Under the pieces are notes generated by a model, which did no database searches, was not told the origin of the DNA, and saw only the letters and a program-made list of their open reading frames with translations. The position numbers and the translations under genes are program-made. From Micromonospora pattaloongensis (GTDB taxonomy: Bacteria; Actinomycetota; Actinomycetes; Mycobacteriales; Micromonosporaceae), in the NCBI RefSeq assembly GCF_900107255.1, contig NZ_FNPH01000002.1:558001-622000 (forward strand): a DNA stretch of 64,000 bases. The letters run 5' to 3'. This document shows, in pieces, positions 42,548 to 48,894 of the stretch; the first letter of the stretch is position 1, and every line of letters begins with the position of its first letter.

Positions 42548-43264
42548 TCAGCCGAGGCCGCCGGCAACGCCGATCAACCGCCCGATCAGGTACGTCGCGG
42601 CGGCGGCCGCGGCGCCGAGCAGCAGTTGGCGCAGCCCGTTGTTCCACCAGCGCCGCCTCGTGAACCGGGCGACGATCGCGCCCGCGGCGAAGAGGCCGAC
42701 GCCACCGACGGCCAGCGCCGGCCAGAGCTGGTCGAAGCCGAGCAGGTACGTCAACAGCGGGATCAGCGCCCCCACCGAGAAGCAGAGGAACGAGGAGAAG
42801 GCCGCCGTCCAGGGGCTGGGCTGCTCGCCCGGTTCGACTCCCAACTCCTCGCGGGCGTGCAGCCGCAGCGCCTCCTCGGGGTTGTCCCGGATCGCGTCGG
42901 CGACCTGCTGGGCCAGGTCGGCCGGGAGGCCGCGCCGCACCCACGCCTCGGCGAGCTCCCGCGCCTCCGCCTCCGGGTGCCGCTCCAGCTCGCGCCGCTC
43001 CTTGGCGATCTCCGCGGCGATCTGCTCGTTCTGGGTCTGCACGCTGGTGTATTCGCCGAGCCCCATCGAGATGGCCCCGGCGACCAGGCCGGCGACCCCG
43101 GTGAGCACGATGTCGCGCGGCGGGACGCCGCCCCCGCCGACGCCGGCGATCAGCGCGATGTTGGTGACCAGCCCGTCCATGGCCCCGAAGACAGCCGGAC
43201 GCAGCCAACCACCGGACACGTCGGCGTGGTGGTGCTCGTCGAACGCGGCGGGGGCGTCCGTCAC
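42548..43264 (-). CDS. VIT1/CCC1 family iron/manganese transporter-like protein
   Basis: A 238-residue membrane protein with about five membrane segments. The N-terminal block [20 protein letters not shown] and [14 protein letters not shown] are hallmarks of the family, which moves Fe2+/Mn2+ out of the cytoplasm in plants and yeast. The charged cytoplasmic loop (about 80-135, [20 protein letters not shown]) corresponds to the metal-binding domain of VIT1. The start GTG overlaps the map stop by four bases. It ends seven bases from the convergent permease gene, with no visible terminator between. Confidence 0.88.
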
Positions 43265-44118
43265 GGGAGCGTGAGGATCTCGTACCCGTCCTCGGTCACG
43301 ACGATCGTGTGCTCGAACTGCGCCGTCCAGCGCCGGTCCTTGGTGACCACCGTCCAGCCGTCGTTCCACAGCTCGTACTCGTGCGTGCCGAGCGTGATCA
43401 TGGGCTCGATCGTGAAGGTCATCCCGGGCTCCATCACGTCGGTGGGGCGCGGGCTGTCGTAGTGCGGCACGTAGAGGCCGCTGTGGAAGGCCTCGCCGAT
43501 GCCGTGGCCGGTGAAGTCGCGGACGACGCCGTAGCCGAAGCGGCGGGCGTACGACTCGATCACCCGGCCGACGACGTTGATCTGCCGGCCGGGGGCGACG
43601 GCCCGGATCCCCCGCATCATCGCCTCGTGGGTGCGCTCGACGAGCAGCCGCGCCTCCTCGGAGACCTCGCCGACGCAGAACGTCGCGTCGGTGTCCCCGT
43701 GCACGCCGCCGATGTACGCCGTGACGTCGACGTTGATGATGTCGCCGTCCTCCAGCACCGTGGAGTCCGGGATGCCGTGGCAGATCACCTCGTTGAGGCT
43801 GGTGCAGCACGACTTGGGGAAGCCGCGGTAGCCGAGCGTCGACGGGTAGGCGTCGTGGTCGCAGAGGAACTCGTGCACCACGCGGTCGATCTCGTCCGTG
43901 GTGACGCCCGGCTTGCAGTGCTCGCCCGCGAGCTGGGTGGCCCGCGCCGCGATCCGCCCGGCGATCCGCATCTTCTCGATCGTCTCTTCGCTCTGCACGT
44001 GCGAGCCGCGGTATTCCTTCGGGCGCTTCTTCCCGACGTACTCCGGGCGGGCGATGTGGGACGGCACCTGCCGCCACGGGGAGAGCGTGCCTGGGGTGAG
44101 CGGTGCACGGACGGTCAT
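43261..44118 (-). CDS. map: Type I methionine aminopeptidase
   Basis: Removes the N-terminal methionine; 285 residues. The five metal ligands are visible: two Asp ([18 protein letters not shown]), His (GHGIGEAFH), Glu ([11 protein letters not shown]) and Glu ([12 protein letters not shown]). The 40-residue N-terminal extension with [18 protein letters not shown] is the SH3-binding-like linker seen in actinobacterial MetAP1c. No ribosome site precedes the ATG; TAGGCT ends six bases upstream. Coupled to the VIT1-like gene. Confidence 0.95.
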
Positions 44119-44206: not shown

Positions 44207-44536
44207 ATGTGGCATCGTGGCCCGGTGGATCAAGAAGGCCGGGAGTCTGTCTTCTCCGCGACCACCGAACTCGACGGCGACCACGCCACCGTCCGTGTCC
44301 GGGGCGAGGTCGACCTGTCGACGGCGGACACCATGTTCCAGGCGGCGACCCGGGCGGACGCGCCCCGGGTGACGCTGGACCTGCGCGAGGTGATGTTCTT
44401 CGACTCCGCCGCGATCCAGGCGCTGATCCGCCTCGCCGACCACTGCCCGGAGCTGACCGTGCTCCCGTCCCGGCAGGTCCGCCGGGTGCTCGACATCTCG
44501 GGGCTGGGCGAGCAGCCCTGGCTGGCCACCACCTGA
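44207..44536 (+). CDS. STAS domain anti-sigma factor antagonist
   Basis: A 109-residue single STAS domain (SpoIIAA/RsbV type). The phosphorylation site is S67 in LDLREVMFFDSAAIQALIRL; EVDLSTADTMFQAA precedes it. Unphosphorylated, such proteins bind an RsbW-like kinase and free its sigma factor. AGGCGGAA lies just before the ATG. The gene ends 11 bases from the convergent kinase/phosphatase at 44548, whose C-terminus contains both an RsbU-like phosphatase and an RsbW-like kinase fold, so a functional pair is plausible. Confidence 0.85.
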   Translation: MWHRGPVDQEGRESVFSATTELDGDHATVRVRGEVDLSTADTMFQAATRADAPRVTLDLREVMFFDSAAIQALIRLADHCPELTVLPSRQVRRVLDISGLGEQPWLATT

Positions 44537-44547
44537 GCCGACCGGCC

Positions 44548-47500
44548 TCACCCGCTCAGCGGCCGCCGCAGCGTCACCTCCGTGCCGTGCGCGGTCCGGT
44601 CGACGGTCAGTTCGGCGAGCGCCCCGATCAGCGCGAGCCCCCGGCCCCGGAAGCCCCCCTCCGACGCGGCCCGCCACTGTCCGGTGTCGCGGACCCGGAC
44701 GACCACGGCGCCGTCGGAGATCCCGACCTCGATGGAGATCATCGGCTCGGTGGGGTCCACCGGGTGTTCGATGGCGTTGGCGACCGCCTCCGAGACCGCG
44801 ACCGTCAGATCGAACAGCGCCGCCTCGTCGGCCTTGTGGGCGACCAGGAAGTCCTCCAGCCGCCGGCGCAGCACCGCGAGCTTCGTCGGATCGGCCGGCA
44901 ACCGCAGCGTGAACCGGTCGAGGTGGGTCGCCTCCAGCGCCAACACCGCCACGTCGTCCCGGCGCCGCTGGTCGGCGATCCCTGACACCATCCGATCCAC
45001 CAGCTCCTCGACGTGGTCGAAGCGGCCCGCCGCGTCGTCGATCAGCCGCGCCAGCCCCGCGTCTATCCCCTCGTCGCGGTCCTCGATCAGCCCGTCGGTG
45101 TAGACCAGCAGCCGCGCACCCGGTTCCAGCTCCGCCTCCCGCGTCACGTACGCGGTGTCCGCGATCGCCCCGACCGGCGGGCCGAGCGCCCGGTCGTGGA
45201 GGAACCCGACCGGTTCGCCGGGGCGGATGACGACCGGCGACGGATGGCCCGCGCTGGCGTACCGGAGCCGCCCGGTGGGCGGGTCGAAGCGCAGGCAGAC
45301 CACGGTCGCCAGGGAATGCCCCTCGGTCGTGCGGACCAGCCGGTTGAGCCGGGTGAGCACGGCGCCGGGGTCGAAACCCTCCAGGACGTACGCGCGCAGC
45401 GCGTTGCGCAGCTGCCCCATCGTCGCGGCGGCCTGGACCCCCTTGCCGACCACGTCCCCGATGACCAGCACCAGCTCGCCGCCGTCGGCGGCGATCACGT
45501 CGTACCAGTCGCCGCCCACCTCGGCCTCGATGTGGCCGGGCAGGTAGCGGGTGGCGAGGATGGCGCCGGCGACCTCGGGCAACGAATCGGGCAGCAGGCT
45601 GTGCTGCAGGGTGGTCGCGATCCGCTGTTCCGCCTCGTAGAGCCGGGCGTTCTCCAGCCGCACCCCCACCAGCCGGCCGAGCTGGGCCAGCAGCAACTCC
45701 TCCGCGTCCGGCGCGGTCTCCGCGCCCGACCAGACCCGCAGCTCGCCGAGCGGCTCGCCGGTCACCCCGACCAGCGGCACCACCGTGCACGGCGGGGCCT
45801 CCGGCTCGGCGCCGCCGTCGACGTACCGGACGCCGGCCGCGGCGGCCACCGCGCGGTCGGCGCCGACCATCCGCCGGGCGTGCTGGGCGGCCACCCGGAT
45901 GACCTCGGCGGTGGAGCGCGCGGTGTTCACCGCGATGGCCGCGTCGGCGAGGCCACGCAGCCGGCGGACGGTCTGCCCGCGCAGCTGGGCCAGCTCCAGG
46001 CTGGACCGCACCCGGGCGACGAGCTCCTGACCGGAGAACGGCTTGGTCAGGTAGTCGTCGGCCCCCGCGGCGAGCCCCTCCACCGCGGCCTCCTCGCCCG
46101 CGCGCGCGGAGAGCAGGACGATCGGCAGGTGCCGGGTGCGGGGGTCGCGCCGTAACGCGGCGACCAGCCCGAACCCGTCCAGCCGGGGCATCATCACGTC
46201 GGCGAGGACGAGGTCGAACGCGGCGCTGCCCGCGACCCGCAGCGCGGCCTCGCCGTCGGGCACGGCGACAACCTGCCAGTACGGCGAAAGCAGCCGGGTG
46301 ACGTGATCCCGGAGATCGGCGTTGTCGTCGGCGAGCAGGATCCGGCCCCGCGGACCGTCCCCGGCTCCCGGGGCCGCCGGCGCGGGCGTCGGCGCCGCCG
46401 GCCACGGCCCGTCCTCGACGTACAGCTCGGTGCCGGTCGTGTCCGGCAGCGGCGTGCCGGGCGTGCGGACCTGCTCGGCGGGGAGATGGGCGTGCCCGAA
46501 CGGGACCGAGACCGTGAACGTGCTGCCCTCGCCCGGTCGGCTCCGGGCGGACACGGAGCCGCCGTGCAGCTCGGTGAGGCGCCGGACCAGCGCGAGCCCG
46601 ATGCCGGTGCCGTCGCCGCCGCGCGACGGTGTGCCGGCGACCCGGTGGAAGCGGTCGAACAGCCGCGGCAGCTCCTCGGCCGGGATACCCACGCCGGTGT
46701 CGGTGACGTGCAACCGCGCGGTCGAGCCGGCCGCGGAGAGCCGGACGGTGATGCTGCCCTCGAAGGTGAACTTGAGCGCGTTGGCGAGGAGGTTGAAGAC
46801 GACCTTCTCCCACATCTCCCGGTCGACGAAGACGGGGGCGGGCAGCGGTGGACAGTCCACTTCCAGCCGCAGCCCGACCCGCTGCGCGGCCGACCGGAAC
46901 GTGCTGGCGAGTCGGGCCGTGAAGTCGGCGAGGTCGGTCGGCTCGTAGACGGCGGTGTGCCGCCCCGACTCGACCCGGGAGAAGTCGAGCACGGTGTTGA
47001 CGAGCTTGAGCAGCCGCCGTGCGTTGCGCCGCACGAGGCCGAGCGGCTCCCGGTAGCGCTCGGGCAGCTCCGGGTCGGCCAGGAGATCCTCGGTCGGGCC
47101 GAGAATCAGCGTCAGCGGGGTGCGGAACTCGTGGCTGACGTTGGCGAAGAACGTGCTCTTGGCACGGTCGAGGGCGGCGAGCTGCGCGGCCCGGTCCCGC
47201 GCCTGCTCGTACGCGCGCTGGGTGGTCACCGCGCTGGAGATCTGCGCCGCCAGCAGGTCGAAGAAGGTGCGGTACTCGCCGAAGAGCGCCAGGTGCCGGC
47301 TCGTCCCCACCACCAGCGCGCCGGCCCGCTCGTCGGCGGCGGCGATGGGCAGCACCAGCGCCCGGGGCGAGGCCGTCTCCGGGAGCTGGGTGACGAAGTC
47401 CGACGCGTCGGCCAGGCCCGCCGGCCCGCCGGCCAGCACGGCGGCGAGCGCGGCCGGGGTCGACCGGTCCCGTCCGCTGCGCGGCGCGGCCACGGCCTGC

Positions 47501-48210
47501 TCCGGCACCCCGCTCCAGGCGGCCAGCTCGGCGTCGCCGCCGGCGCCCAGGTAGAGCAGCGCGAACGGGACGTCCGCGCGGTGCCGGTCGAGCACCCGCG
47601 CCGCCTCCTGCCCCAACCGGCCGCGGGTCTCCAGGTCGGAGAGGCGGGCGCCCAGCTCGGCGAGGGCGCGCAGCCGCCGCTCCCCCAGCACCCGCCCGGT
47701 GGTCTCGCTGACGATGCAGAAGATGCCGCCGATCGACCCGTCCTCGACCCGCAACGGGTCGTACGAGATGTCGAAGTACGTCTCCTCGAGATAGCCGTGC
47801 CGCTCCAGCAGGAACGGATGGTCCCGGCTCTGGTACGCCCGACCGGTGCTGGTCACGCCGGCGAAGAGCGGCGCGAGCACCGGCCAGAGTTCGGTCCAGT
47901 GTTCCCGCGCGGGGCGGGCGAGGGCGGCGGGATGCTTGTGCCCGATCGTCGGCAGGTACGCGTCGTTGTAGAAGGCGAGCTGCTCCGGCCCCCAGAACAT
48001 GACGATCTGGGACTGGGAGGCGAGCATCGTGCTGACCGCGTGGGCGAGGCTCGGGGGCCAGGTCTGCGGCGGGCCGAGCGGGGTGGTCGACCAGTCCAGG
48101 TCGCGCAGCCGGGCGCCCATCTCGCCGCCCGCCTCGAAGGCCGCCGCGAGGCTCGCCGAGAGGACCTTCCCCATGGGGAGATCACGGTCACTCTCCGGCG
48201 TTGACCCCAT
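44548..48210 (-). CDS. Hybrid histidine kinase - receiver - PP2C phosphatase - RsbW-like ATPase
   Basis: A 1220-residue cytoplasmic signalling protein without membrane segments. Domains: PAS (about 50-175), GAF (about 180-325), HisKA with H350 (NVSHEFRTPLTLIL), HATPase_c to about 565 (NALKFT, DTGVGIP, GTGIGLALV), receiver about 612-735 with D661 (LADVMMPRLDG), GAF (about 740-860), SpoIIE/PP2C phosphatase (about 865-1085; EAEVGGDWYDV, GDVVGKGVQAA, SAGHPSP, RDDVAVLAL) and a C-terminal RsbW-type ATPase (about 1090-1220; VAVSEAVANAIEH, GRGLALI). It joins two-component sensing to partner switching. ATG 48210 has GGGAGGG five bases upstream. The convergent STAS gene is the likely target. Confidence 0.9.
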   Translation of the reverse strand: MGSTPESDRDLPMGKVLSASLAAAFEAGGEMGARLRDLDWSTTPLGPPQTWPPSLAHAVSTMLASQSQIVMFWGPEQLAFYNDAYLPTIGHKHPAALARPAREHWTELWPVLAPLFAGVTSTGRAYQSRDHPFLLERHGYLEETYFDISYDPLRVEDGSIGGIFCIVSETTGRVLGERRLRALAELGARLSDLETRGRLGQEAARVLDRHRADVPFALLYLGAGGDAELAAWSGVPEQAVAAPRSGRDRSTPAALAAVLAGGPAGLADASDFVTQLPETASPRALVLPIAAADERAGALVVGTSRHLALFGEYRTFFDLLAAQISSAVTTQRAYEQARDRAAQLAALDRAKSTFFANVSHEFRTPLTLILGPTEDLLADPELPERYREPLGLVRRNARRLLKLVNTVLDFSRVESGRHTAVYEPTDLADFTARLASTFRSAAQRVGLRLEVDCPPLPAPVFVDREMWEKVVFNLLANALKFTFEGSITVRLSAAGSTARLHVTDTGVGIPAEELPRLFDRFHRVAGTPSRGGDGTGIGLALVRRLTELHGGSVSARSRPGEGSTFTVSVPFGHAHLPAEQVRTPGTPLPDTTGTELYVEDGPWPAAPTPAPAAPGAGDGPRGRILLADDNADLRDHVTRLLSPYWQVVAVPDGEAALRVAGSAAFDLVLADVMMPRLDGFGLVAALRRDPRTRHLPIVLLSARAGEEAAVEGLAAGADDYLTKPFSGQELVARVRSSLELAQLRGQTVRRLRGLADAAIAVNTARSTAEVIRVAAQHARRMVGADRAVAAAAGVRYVDGGAEPEAPPCTVVPLVGVTGEPLGELRVWSGAETAPDAEELLLAQLGRLVGVRLENARLYEAEQRIATTLQHSLLPDSLPEVAGAILATRYLPGHIEAEVGGDWYDVIAADGGELVLVIGDVVGKGVQAAATMGQLRNALRAYVLEGFDPGAVLTRLNRLVRTTEGHSLATVVCLRFDPPTGRLRYASAGHPSPVVIRPGEPVGFLHDRALGPPVGAIADTAYVTREAELEPGARLLVYTDGLIEDRDEGIDAGLARLIDDAAGRFDHVEELVDRMVSGIADQRRRDDVAVLALEATHLDRFTLRLPADPTKLAVLRRRLEDFLVAHKADEAALFDLTVAVSEAVANAIEHPVDPTEPMISIEVGISDGAVVVRVRDTGQWRAASEGGFRGRGLALIGALAELTVDRTAHGTEVTLRRPLSG

Positions 48211-48315
48211 CAAACCCTCCCGCGACGGCCGGCGTATCGAACGTTCTGCGACGTGTCCGCCAACGCCTTCTACCCCGGCCATCCATGACCGTAACGCCGG
48301 TGAGCCCGGCGACGC

Positions 48316-48894
48316 TCATTCAGGTGCCGGTTGAACCCCGGCCGCCAGCGCGGGCAACCCGTCGATGCTGACGGCGTTCCGGGTCGCACGATAGTCCGCG
48401 AGCTCCGCGGCGCTGCGCCGGGAGTGGGACGTGATCAGCAGCTCCCGGTCGCCCTCGTACGTCATGAGCGGGACCGCGAAGCCGCAGGAGTCGCTGACCC
48501 GGCTCACCGCGACGGTGATCACCGCCCGGACGCCGTGCCGGTCCGGCGCGGCGGGGAACGCGGCGAGCAGCTCGGCGAAGCGGGGGTCGTCGACCGGCAC
48601 GGCGACGCCGTGCCCGTGCAGCCGGACGATCTTCGGAGGGCCGGCGAACGCGCAGAACATCAGCGTGACGCGCCCGTTGTCACGCAGGTGCGCGATCGTC
48701 TCCGCGCCGCTGCCGTGGTAGTCGAGGTAGGCGACCCGATGCTCGTCGAGCACGGCGAACGTGCCGGTCATGCCCTTCGGTGAGACGTTGACGTGCCCGT
48801 CGGCGCCGGACGGAGCGGTCGCCACGAAGAAGACGGGTTGAGCGTCGATGAACTCGCGGAGCCGGCCGTCGATCCCGTCGTACACCTTTCCCAT
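48316..48894 (-). CDS. Pyridoxamine 5'-phosphate oxidase-like (flavin split-barrel) protein
   Basis: A 192-residue PNPOx-like protein. The N-terminal split barrel shows FIDAQPVFFVATAPSGADGH, VNVSPKGM and the YLDYHGSGAETIAHLRDNGR block found in a widely distributed subfamily that probably binds FMN or F420. The C-terminal part (RNAVSIDGLPAL) is family-typical. CAGGAT ends seven bases before the ATG and no ribosome site is seen. Substrate unknown. Confidence 0.85.
   Translation of the reverse strand: MGKVYDGIDGRLREFIDAQPVFFVATAPSGADGHVNVSPKGMTGTFAVLDEHRVAYLDYHGSGAETIAHLRDNGRVTLMFCAFAGPPKIVRLHGHGVAVPVDDPRFAELLAAFPAAPDRHGVRAVITVAVSRVSDSCGFAVPLMTYEGDRELLITSHSRRSAAELADYRATRNAVSIDGLPALAAGVQPAPE

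Follow-up and report, generated by a model that had tools for sequence, protein, structure and literature searches.

A conserved single-chain histidine kinase, receiver, PP2C phosphatase and RsbW-type kinase convergent with a probable STAS substrate in Micromonospora pattaloongensis

Can a single protein both run a histidine-aspartate relay and set the serine phosphorylation of a STAS protein encoded beside it? This question is raised by a locus of Micromonospora pattaloongensis (contig NZ_FNPH01000002.1, positions 558,001 to 622,000; this whole stretch of 64,000 nucleotides is called the window below), in which the gene for a large multidomain protein, here called the sensor, meets a small STAS gene tail to tail. 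The initial annotation of this DNA had described the sensor as a two-component relay joined to a complete partner-switch. The feature proves to be genuine and is conserved, and its sequence most likely specifies a phospho-switch sensor acting on the neighbouring STAS protein. In our judgement it is probably a soluble stress sensor in which a histidine kinase governs both the addition and the removal of one serine phosphate. We regard it as a fused, one-chain version of a stress-control module already known in bacteria, and not as a new kind of system.

The open reading frame of the sensor occupies positions 44548-48282 of the reverse strand when counted from an upstream ATG at 48282 (1244 residues), while an ATG at 48210, with GGAGGG just 5' of it, yields a form of 1220 residues (44548-48210). 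Residues are numbered here on the 1244-residue form; 24 is subtracted for the shorter one. The frame and its Pfam matches bear out that histidine kinase, receiver, PP2C phosphatase and RsbW-like kinase share one chain of 1220 residues: HisKA (374-440), HATPase_c (489-595), Response_reg (648-759), SpoIIE/PP2C (933-1117) and HATPase_c_2/RsbW (1128-1239) all exceeded the curated cut-offs. The complete domain order is PAS-GAF-HisKA-HATPase-REC-helix/GAF/helix-PP2C-RsbW, where REC is the receiver and the second, GAF-like stretch is named from our reading of an AlphaFold2 model, there being no Pfam match in that region. A transmembrane sensor was considered and dropped because no membrane-like stretch was found in the protein, its highest 19-residue hydropathy being only 1.45.

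To count relatives we used a scan of named genomes (the best 80 of 590 loci), in which 37 homologues begin in the front part of the query and extend to where the phosphatase ends; by sensor protein, the nearest named relatives belong to the Micromonosporaceae. One of the 37, from Micromonospora lutea (L012), is split by a frame break near query residue 448, which may be a sequencing error or mark a pseudogene. The initial annotation had named degenerate active sites as a ground for giving up its reading. We looked for them by aligning the window protein with 19 of the homologues, found none and rejected the possibility. His384, N501, D528, D653, D695 and K747 are kept in 19/19 rows that have the region (the Micromonospora avicenniae protein, L057, lacks it), and all 20 rows keep both the PP2C residues D925, D928, D943, T1062, D1063, D1109 and D1110 and the RsbW residues E1165, N1169, D1199, G1213 and G1215. 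The sensor thus has the make-up of a hybrid histidine kinase (HisKA with its His, HATPase_c and a REC with its Asp in the same chain), of a SpoIIE/RsbU-type phosphatase (a SpoIIE domain with Asp residues that we take to be the metal-binding ones) and of an RsbW/SpoIIAB-type kinase (HATPase_c_2 with N-box Glu/Asn and a glycine motif; the region also matches RsbW 6m36, E 0.006, in a sequence search of the PDB). Both enzymes that would set STAS phosphorylation, which had been claimed for this chain, appear from their active-site residues to be encoded intact.

Structure prediction agreed with this domain assignment. The AlphaFold2 model of residues 45-370 contains the PAS and GAF region (mean predicted local distance difference test score, pLDDT, 94.0), and that of residues 640-1244 (pLDDT 86.9) contains REC, a 37-residue helix, the GAF-like stretch, a 38-residue helix, PP2C and RsbW. 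The top structural match of this back half was the PP2C-RsbW tandem of Mycobacterium tuberculosis Rv1364c (3ke6; Z 29.4, 32% identity over 332 aligned residues). Next in rank came the SiaA PP2C and RssB, a receiver with PP2C. By sequence, too, the tandem is closest to 3ke6 among solved entries (E 2e-40), and the three best PDB matches of the PAS profile were all Rv1364c PAS (best E 2e-11). For the front half, the best-E rows of a Foldseek search were phytochrome-type and DosP chains with low TM-scores, and Rv1364c PAS (3k3c) appeared only at row 31 (TMt 0.73). Taken together, sequence and models suggest that the sensor looks like an Rv1364c-type chain into which a histidine kinase and receiver have been inserted and from which the STAS domain has been detached.

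The STAS protein itself exceeds the Pfam cut-offs for both STAS_2 and STAS, and has a phosphorylatable Ser at the conserved site, as RsbV and SpoIIAA do: Ser67 lies in the motif FFDSAA and aligned with the DS of SpoIIAA 1auz, a match that is weak by itself (E 0.0084). The coordinates confirm that its gene converges on the sensor gene with 11 bases (44537-44547) between the stops.

Comparative genomics supports the pairing of the two genes. Ten of the 37 homologues have a convergent STAS gene directly downstream, and in 19/37 a downstream STAS gene runs in the same direction and overlaps, its profile match beginning before the sensor stop. The phospho-site Ser is present in 29/29 of these downstream partners (for L036 the second downstream STAS was counted; the first also has the Ser). 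In a tree of PP2C-RsbW sequences, the window protein groups with nine relatives from the Micromonosporaceae (Shimodaira-Hasegawa-like approximate likelihood ratio test 100), and the tenth convergent locus, from Pseudonocardia (L076), falls in the other lineage. We then used 121 genomes of the same family, our own included, in which the STAS profile matched 37 genomes (E<=1e-15) and the PP2C-RsbW query 33 (E<=1e-60), of which 31 reached E<=1e-128; the other two (G094 and G108, E ~1e-62) were left out as more distant. All 31 genomes with a close orthologue also carry the STAS gene, and in 29 of these 31 pairs the two genes converge directly, their matched parts lying no more than about 110 bases apart. 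In the other two (G044 and G081; L158 and L159) sensor and STAS still converge, with about 3.6 kb and other genes between them. Among 197 genomes sampled across the class, four matched at E<=1e-70: our own genome, two further members of its family and a single genome from a different family (6e-77).

Several observations weigh against this interpretation. The N-terminal GAF_2 match (237-352) is slightly under the Pfam cut-off (26.5 versus 28.6 bits). Eight of the 37 homologues have no downstream STAS gene (six have none within the distances tested and two have one upstream only); two of the six (L015 and L065) also have no RsbW match in Pfam, and the other four have RsbW or were outside the Pfam scan. 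Six of the 37 STAS-bearing family genomes, all of one genus (g18), have no sensor orthologue at E<=1e-60. Finally, the 31/31 co-occurrence largely reflects one inherited locus and not 31 events; separate support for the pairing is provided by the co-directional STAS lineage. Because STAS persists without the sensor in g18, the pair is not exclusive; the initial proposal of this STAS protein as partner and probable substrate gains comparative support as far as the pairing goes.

These exceptions lend some weight to a different explanation, in which the STAS protein mainly serves other RsbW kinases and its place beside the sensor is inherited locus structure next to the methionine aminopeptidase gene map. 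A map match was found in 30/30 STAS loci, our own and six g18 loci included, all 30 with the Ser; the g18 loci (L103, L108, L110, L112, L113 and L114) retain STAS beside map, an arrangement seen in each of the three contexts that were inspected. In addition, the genome offers many other RsbW-like and STAS matches, several of them weak: the totals at E<=0.001 are 31 for HATPase_c_2 and 16 for STAS_2, next to 8 for SpoIIE, and some HATPase_c_2 hits and two STAS_2 hits stay under the Pfam cut-off. However, the co-directional, overlapping arrangement pairs sensor and STAS separately in another lineage, and PP2C-RsbW and STAS stay together where the histidine kinase and receiver have been lost (see below). 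Where all four proteins were available (22 loci), the distances of STAS also correlate with those of PP2C (0.85) and RsbW (0.72), and the correlation persists once map distances are removed (partial correlations 0.69 and 0.46); it is supportive only, because the pairs are non-independent. On balance we consider it unlikely that the STAS protein chiefly serves other kinases, and favour its being a partner of the adjacent sensor.

Two orthologues have lost the relay portion of the protein. In that of M. avicenniae (L057) residues 378-747 are missing, which takes away most of the region from HisKA to REC, and that of family genome G075 (L131) lacks HisKA, HATPase_c and REC; both retain PP2C-RsbW and the convergent STAS gene. 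The other 29 of 30 family loci carry HATPase_c and REC. Because these two proteins lost the histidine kinase and receiver yet kept PP2C-RsbW and STAS, the data fit a division into an input module and a PP2C-RsbW-STAS core. The same detachability could mean that the kinase-receiver half addresses other response regulators, its link to an independently regulated PP2C-RsbW being only physical. We find this quite improbable, as the phospho-sites of the relay are conserved and REC is connected to PP2C by long helices, a linker type reported to control PPM phosphatases (PMC12143880).

If the sensor does act on its neighbour, a cue sensed by PAS/GAF would change autophosphorylation of His384, and the phosphate would pass to Asp695 in the same chain or within a dimer. 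The two long helices and the GAF-like stretch would then carry the receiver's action to PP2C, shifting the balance between removal of the Ser67 phosphate by PP2C and its addition by the fused RsbW domain. Unphosphorylated STAS might bind an RsbW-type partner, the sensor's own or a remote one, and so free a client, most likely a SigB/F-type sigma factor encoded elsewhere in the genome. By analogy with published relatives, which go both ways, phosphorylation of Asp695 may raise or lower phosphatase activity. The words "complete partner-switch" in the initial annotation overstate the case, because neither the STAS protein, which has its own gene, nor the final target is part of the chain.

With respect to the output, the annotation had noted that no sigma factor is adjacent. 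This is borne out by the two neighbours that were scanned, methionine aminopeptidase and a PNPOx-like protein, the remaining products of the window being outside the sigma-domain scan, and by a genome-wide search in which none of the 12 SigBFG-profile matches lies inside the window (C20:558001-622000). The locus therefore differs from a classical partner-switch locus, where a sigma gene is linked to rsbV/rsbW. Two of the 12 matches exceed the cut-off (C20:3306 and C4:13031), and because the genome holds both these sigma factors and the many RsbW, STAS and SpoIIE matches, the output target cannot be named. The RsbW domain might itself be an anti-sigma factor that holds a sigma factor directly until STAS releases it, as has been proposed for Rv1364c and reported for CrsR; indeed, the CrsR and HsbR kinase/anti-sigma domains are reported to interact with RpoS (PMC6482189). 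Sigma binding by an RsbW domain is, however, not readable from sequence, and the window has no SigBFG match, so we treat direct sigma binding as possible, if on the unlikely side, and keep to the reading of RsbW as the kinase for STAS.

One of the two sigma factors, outside the window at C4:12920-14059 (L150:4921-6063), is a SigB/F-type protein fused to a C-terminal STAS domain with Ala at the phospho-site. The site is neither Ser nor Thr in 20/20 family loci, our own included (15 Ala, 2 Gly, and one each of His, Pro and Met), and no earlier description of such a fusion was recognised in a literature search. It matched at E<=1e-85 in 55/121 family genomes, those listed being near full length except in G106, and at E<=1e-90 in three of the 197 class-wide genomes, all of the same family. 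Its distribution follows that of the sensor's probable STAS partner: in 61 genomes the full-length fusion occurs in 14/15 STAS-bearing versus 8/46 STAS-lacking genomes (Fisher p 1.8e-7), and in all 121, at E<=1e-85, in 36/37 versus 19/84 (G106, one of the 36, covers the sigma part only). When the link was tested on a tree built from rpoB, which covered 59 of the 61 genomes because G024 and G038 gave no match to that gene, only three supported independent pairs were left. Under most choices of pairing, two of them pointed the same way and one was uninformative, which was not significant. Shared ancestry is sufficient to explain the association, and the fusion was rejected as a linked output. 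It is accordingly very doubtful that sensor, STAS and this distant sigma factor form one circuit, in which the non-phosphorylatable STAS of the sigma factor would compete with the phosphorylatable one for RsbW kinases and a single fused His-Asp/Ser-phosphate protein would set a sigma factor carrying its own anti-anti-sigma. Two further fused proteins are encoded in the genome: one with RsbW before PP2C (C22:134342-136327, a 962-residue frame), an order that we take to be OsaC-like, and one with PP2C before RsbW (C13:155860-156792, an 892-residue frame). Coordinates of the locus are collected in Table 1.

Table 1. Features of the sensor-STAS locus, in window coordinates (residues on the 1244-residue form)
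Feature	Position	Strand	Basis
Single-chain sensor PAS-GAF-HisKA-HATPase-REC-GAF-PP2C-RsbW	44548..48210	-	Open reading frame and Pfam; 1220 aa (1244 aa from ATG 48282)
N-terminal PAS, about residues 98-222	47617..47991	-	Profile against PDB, E 2e-11; AlphaFold2 pLDDT 94; nearest solved sequence Rv1364c PAS
GAF, residues 237-352	47227..47574	-	Pfam GAF_2 just under cut-off; AlphaFold2 model
HisKA, phospho-acceptor His384 (codon 47131-47133)	46963..47163	-	Pfam; His in 19/19 aligned rows with the domain
HATPase_c of histidine kinase, N501 and D528 conserved	46498..46818	-	Pfam; alignment
Receiver, phospho-acceptor Asp695 (codon 46198-46200), K747	46006..46341	-	Pfam; alignment
Putative coupling element: 37-residue helix 751-787, GAF-like stretch, 38-residue helix 859-896 into phosphatase	45595..46032	-	AlphaFold2 model
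SpoIIE-type PP2C Ser/Thr phosphatase, D925 D928 D943 D1063 D1109 D1110	44932..45486	-	Pfam E 4.5e-50; 20/20 rows conserved
RsbW-type Ser kinase (HATPase_c_2), E1165 N1169 D1199 G1213 G1215	44566..44901	-	Pfam; alignment; PDB match
STAS protein (RsbV/SpoIIAA-like), 109 aa, probable substrate; Ser67 codon 44405-44407	44207..44536	+	Open reading frame, Pfam, alignment
Methionine aminopeptidase (Peptidase_M24, map)	43261..44118	-	Pfam; divergent from STAS gene; context, not part of switch
PNPOx-like protein	48316..48894	-	Pfam scan of neighbour

How new, then, is this protein? Its fusion is less isolated than the initial annotation implied, as Rv1364c, HsbR/CrsR, RsfSR and RsbKY between them cover most of the sensor; that annotation was right about the presence of both enzyme domains and found support for the STAS pairing, and it overstated completeness and isolation. 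No earlier description of the exact fusion was recognised in the literature searched, which did not extend to de Been et al. 2011 or the OsaC paper. If our interpretation is true, the sensor links histidine-aspartate signalling to serine-phosphate partner switching within one protein, its substrate being small and encoded next to it, and it would offer a convenient test of receiver control over PP2C, for which the relatives without histidine kinase and receiver are built-in controls. In Vibrio fischeri, SypE is likewise reported to be a receiver protein whose kinase and phosphatase activities act on a STAS protein, SypA. We take SypE to be unlike the sensor in having an N-terminal RsbW, a mid-chain REC, no histidine kinase in the chain and a non-sigma output.

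The closest match in structure is Rv1364c, which is reported to combine PAS, PP2C, kinase and STAS (PMC10950880, PMC7693655). The sensor shares with it the PP2C-RsbW tandem and the PAS, all in one chain. Unlike Rv1364c, it has a histidine kinase, REC and a further stretch between PAS/GAF and PP2C, and its STAS protein comes from a separate gene on the opposite strand. That separation is seen in HsbR/HsbA of Pseudomonas and CrsR/CrsA of Shewanella: according to PMC6482189, HsbR, which acts on HsbA, is built of REC, PP2C and kinase domains, and outputs of the two systems include RpoS and, for HsbA, also FlgM and HsbD. HsbR and CrsR have the REC-PP2C-RsbW order of the sensor in one chain, but in that text their histidine kinases are separate proteins (acting via HPt in the case of HsbR), whereas the sensor carries its own. 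Control of a REC-PP2C by a histidine kinase, with dephosphorylation of an RsbV-type STAS, is described in PMC10950880 for RsfS-RsfR/RsfB and RsbK-RsbY/RsbV. There, RsfR of Mycobacterium smegmatis becomes a less active phosphatase towards RsfB when RsfS phosphorylates it, whereas RsbY of Bacillus cereus becomes more active when it is phosphorylated by RsbK; in addition to these opposite signs of control, both pairs differ from the sensor in being separate proteins with a separate RsbW kinase.

Finally, a possible parallel comes from Streptomyces. SCO7327 (OsaD) of Streptomyces coelicolor is described as a hybrid histidine kinase with an unclear signalling cascade (PMC9739842), and SCO7325, two locus tags away, is given as an RsbV homologue involved in SigB activation (PMC9739823, PMC9739842, PMC8346170). 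The Streptomyces loci L036 and L049 in our scan consist of a sensor homologue with a pair of STAS genes after it, an order that matches the SCO7327-SCO7325 numbering. From locus order, the C-terminal domains of SCO7327 being outside the comparison, we infer that SCO7327 is the same type of protein in its co-directional form, and that it and similar hybrid kinases may belong to the same module.

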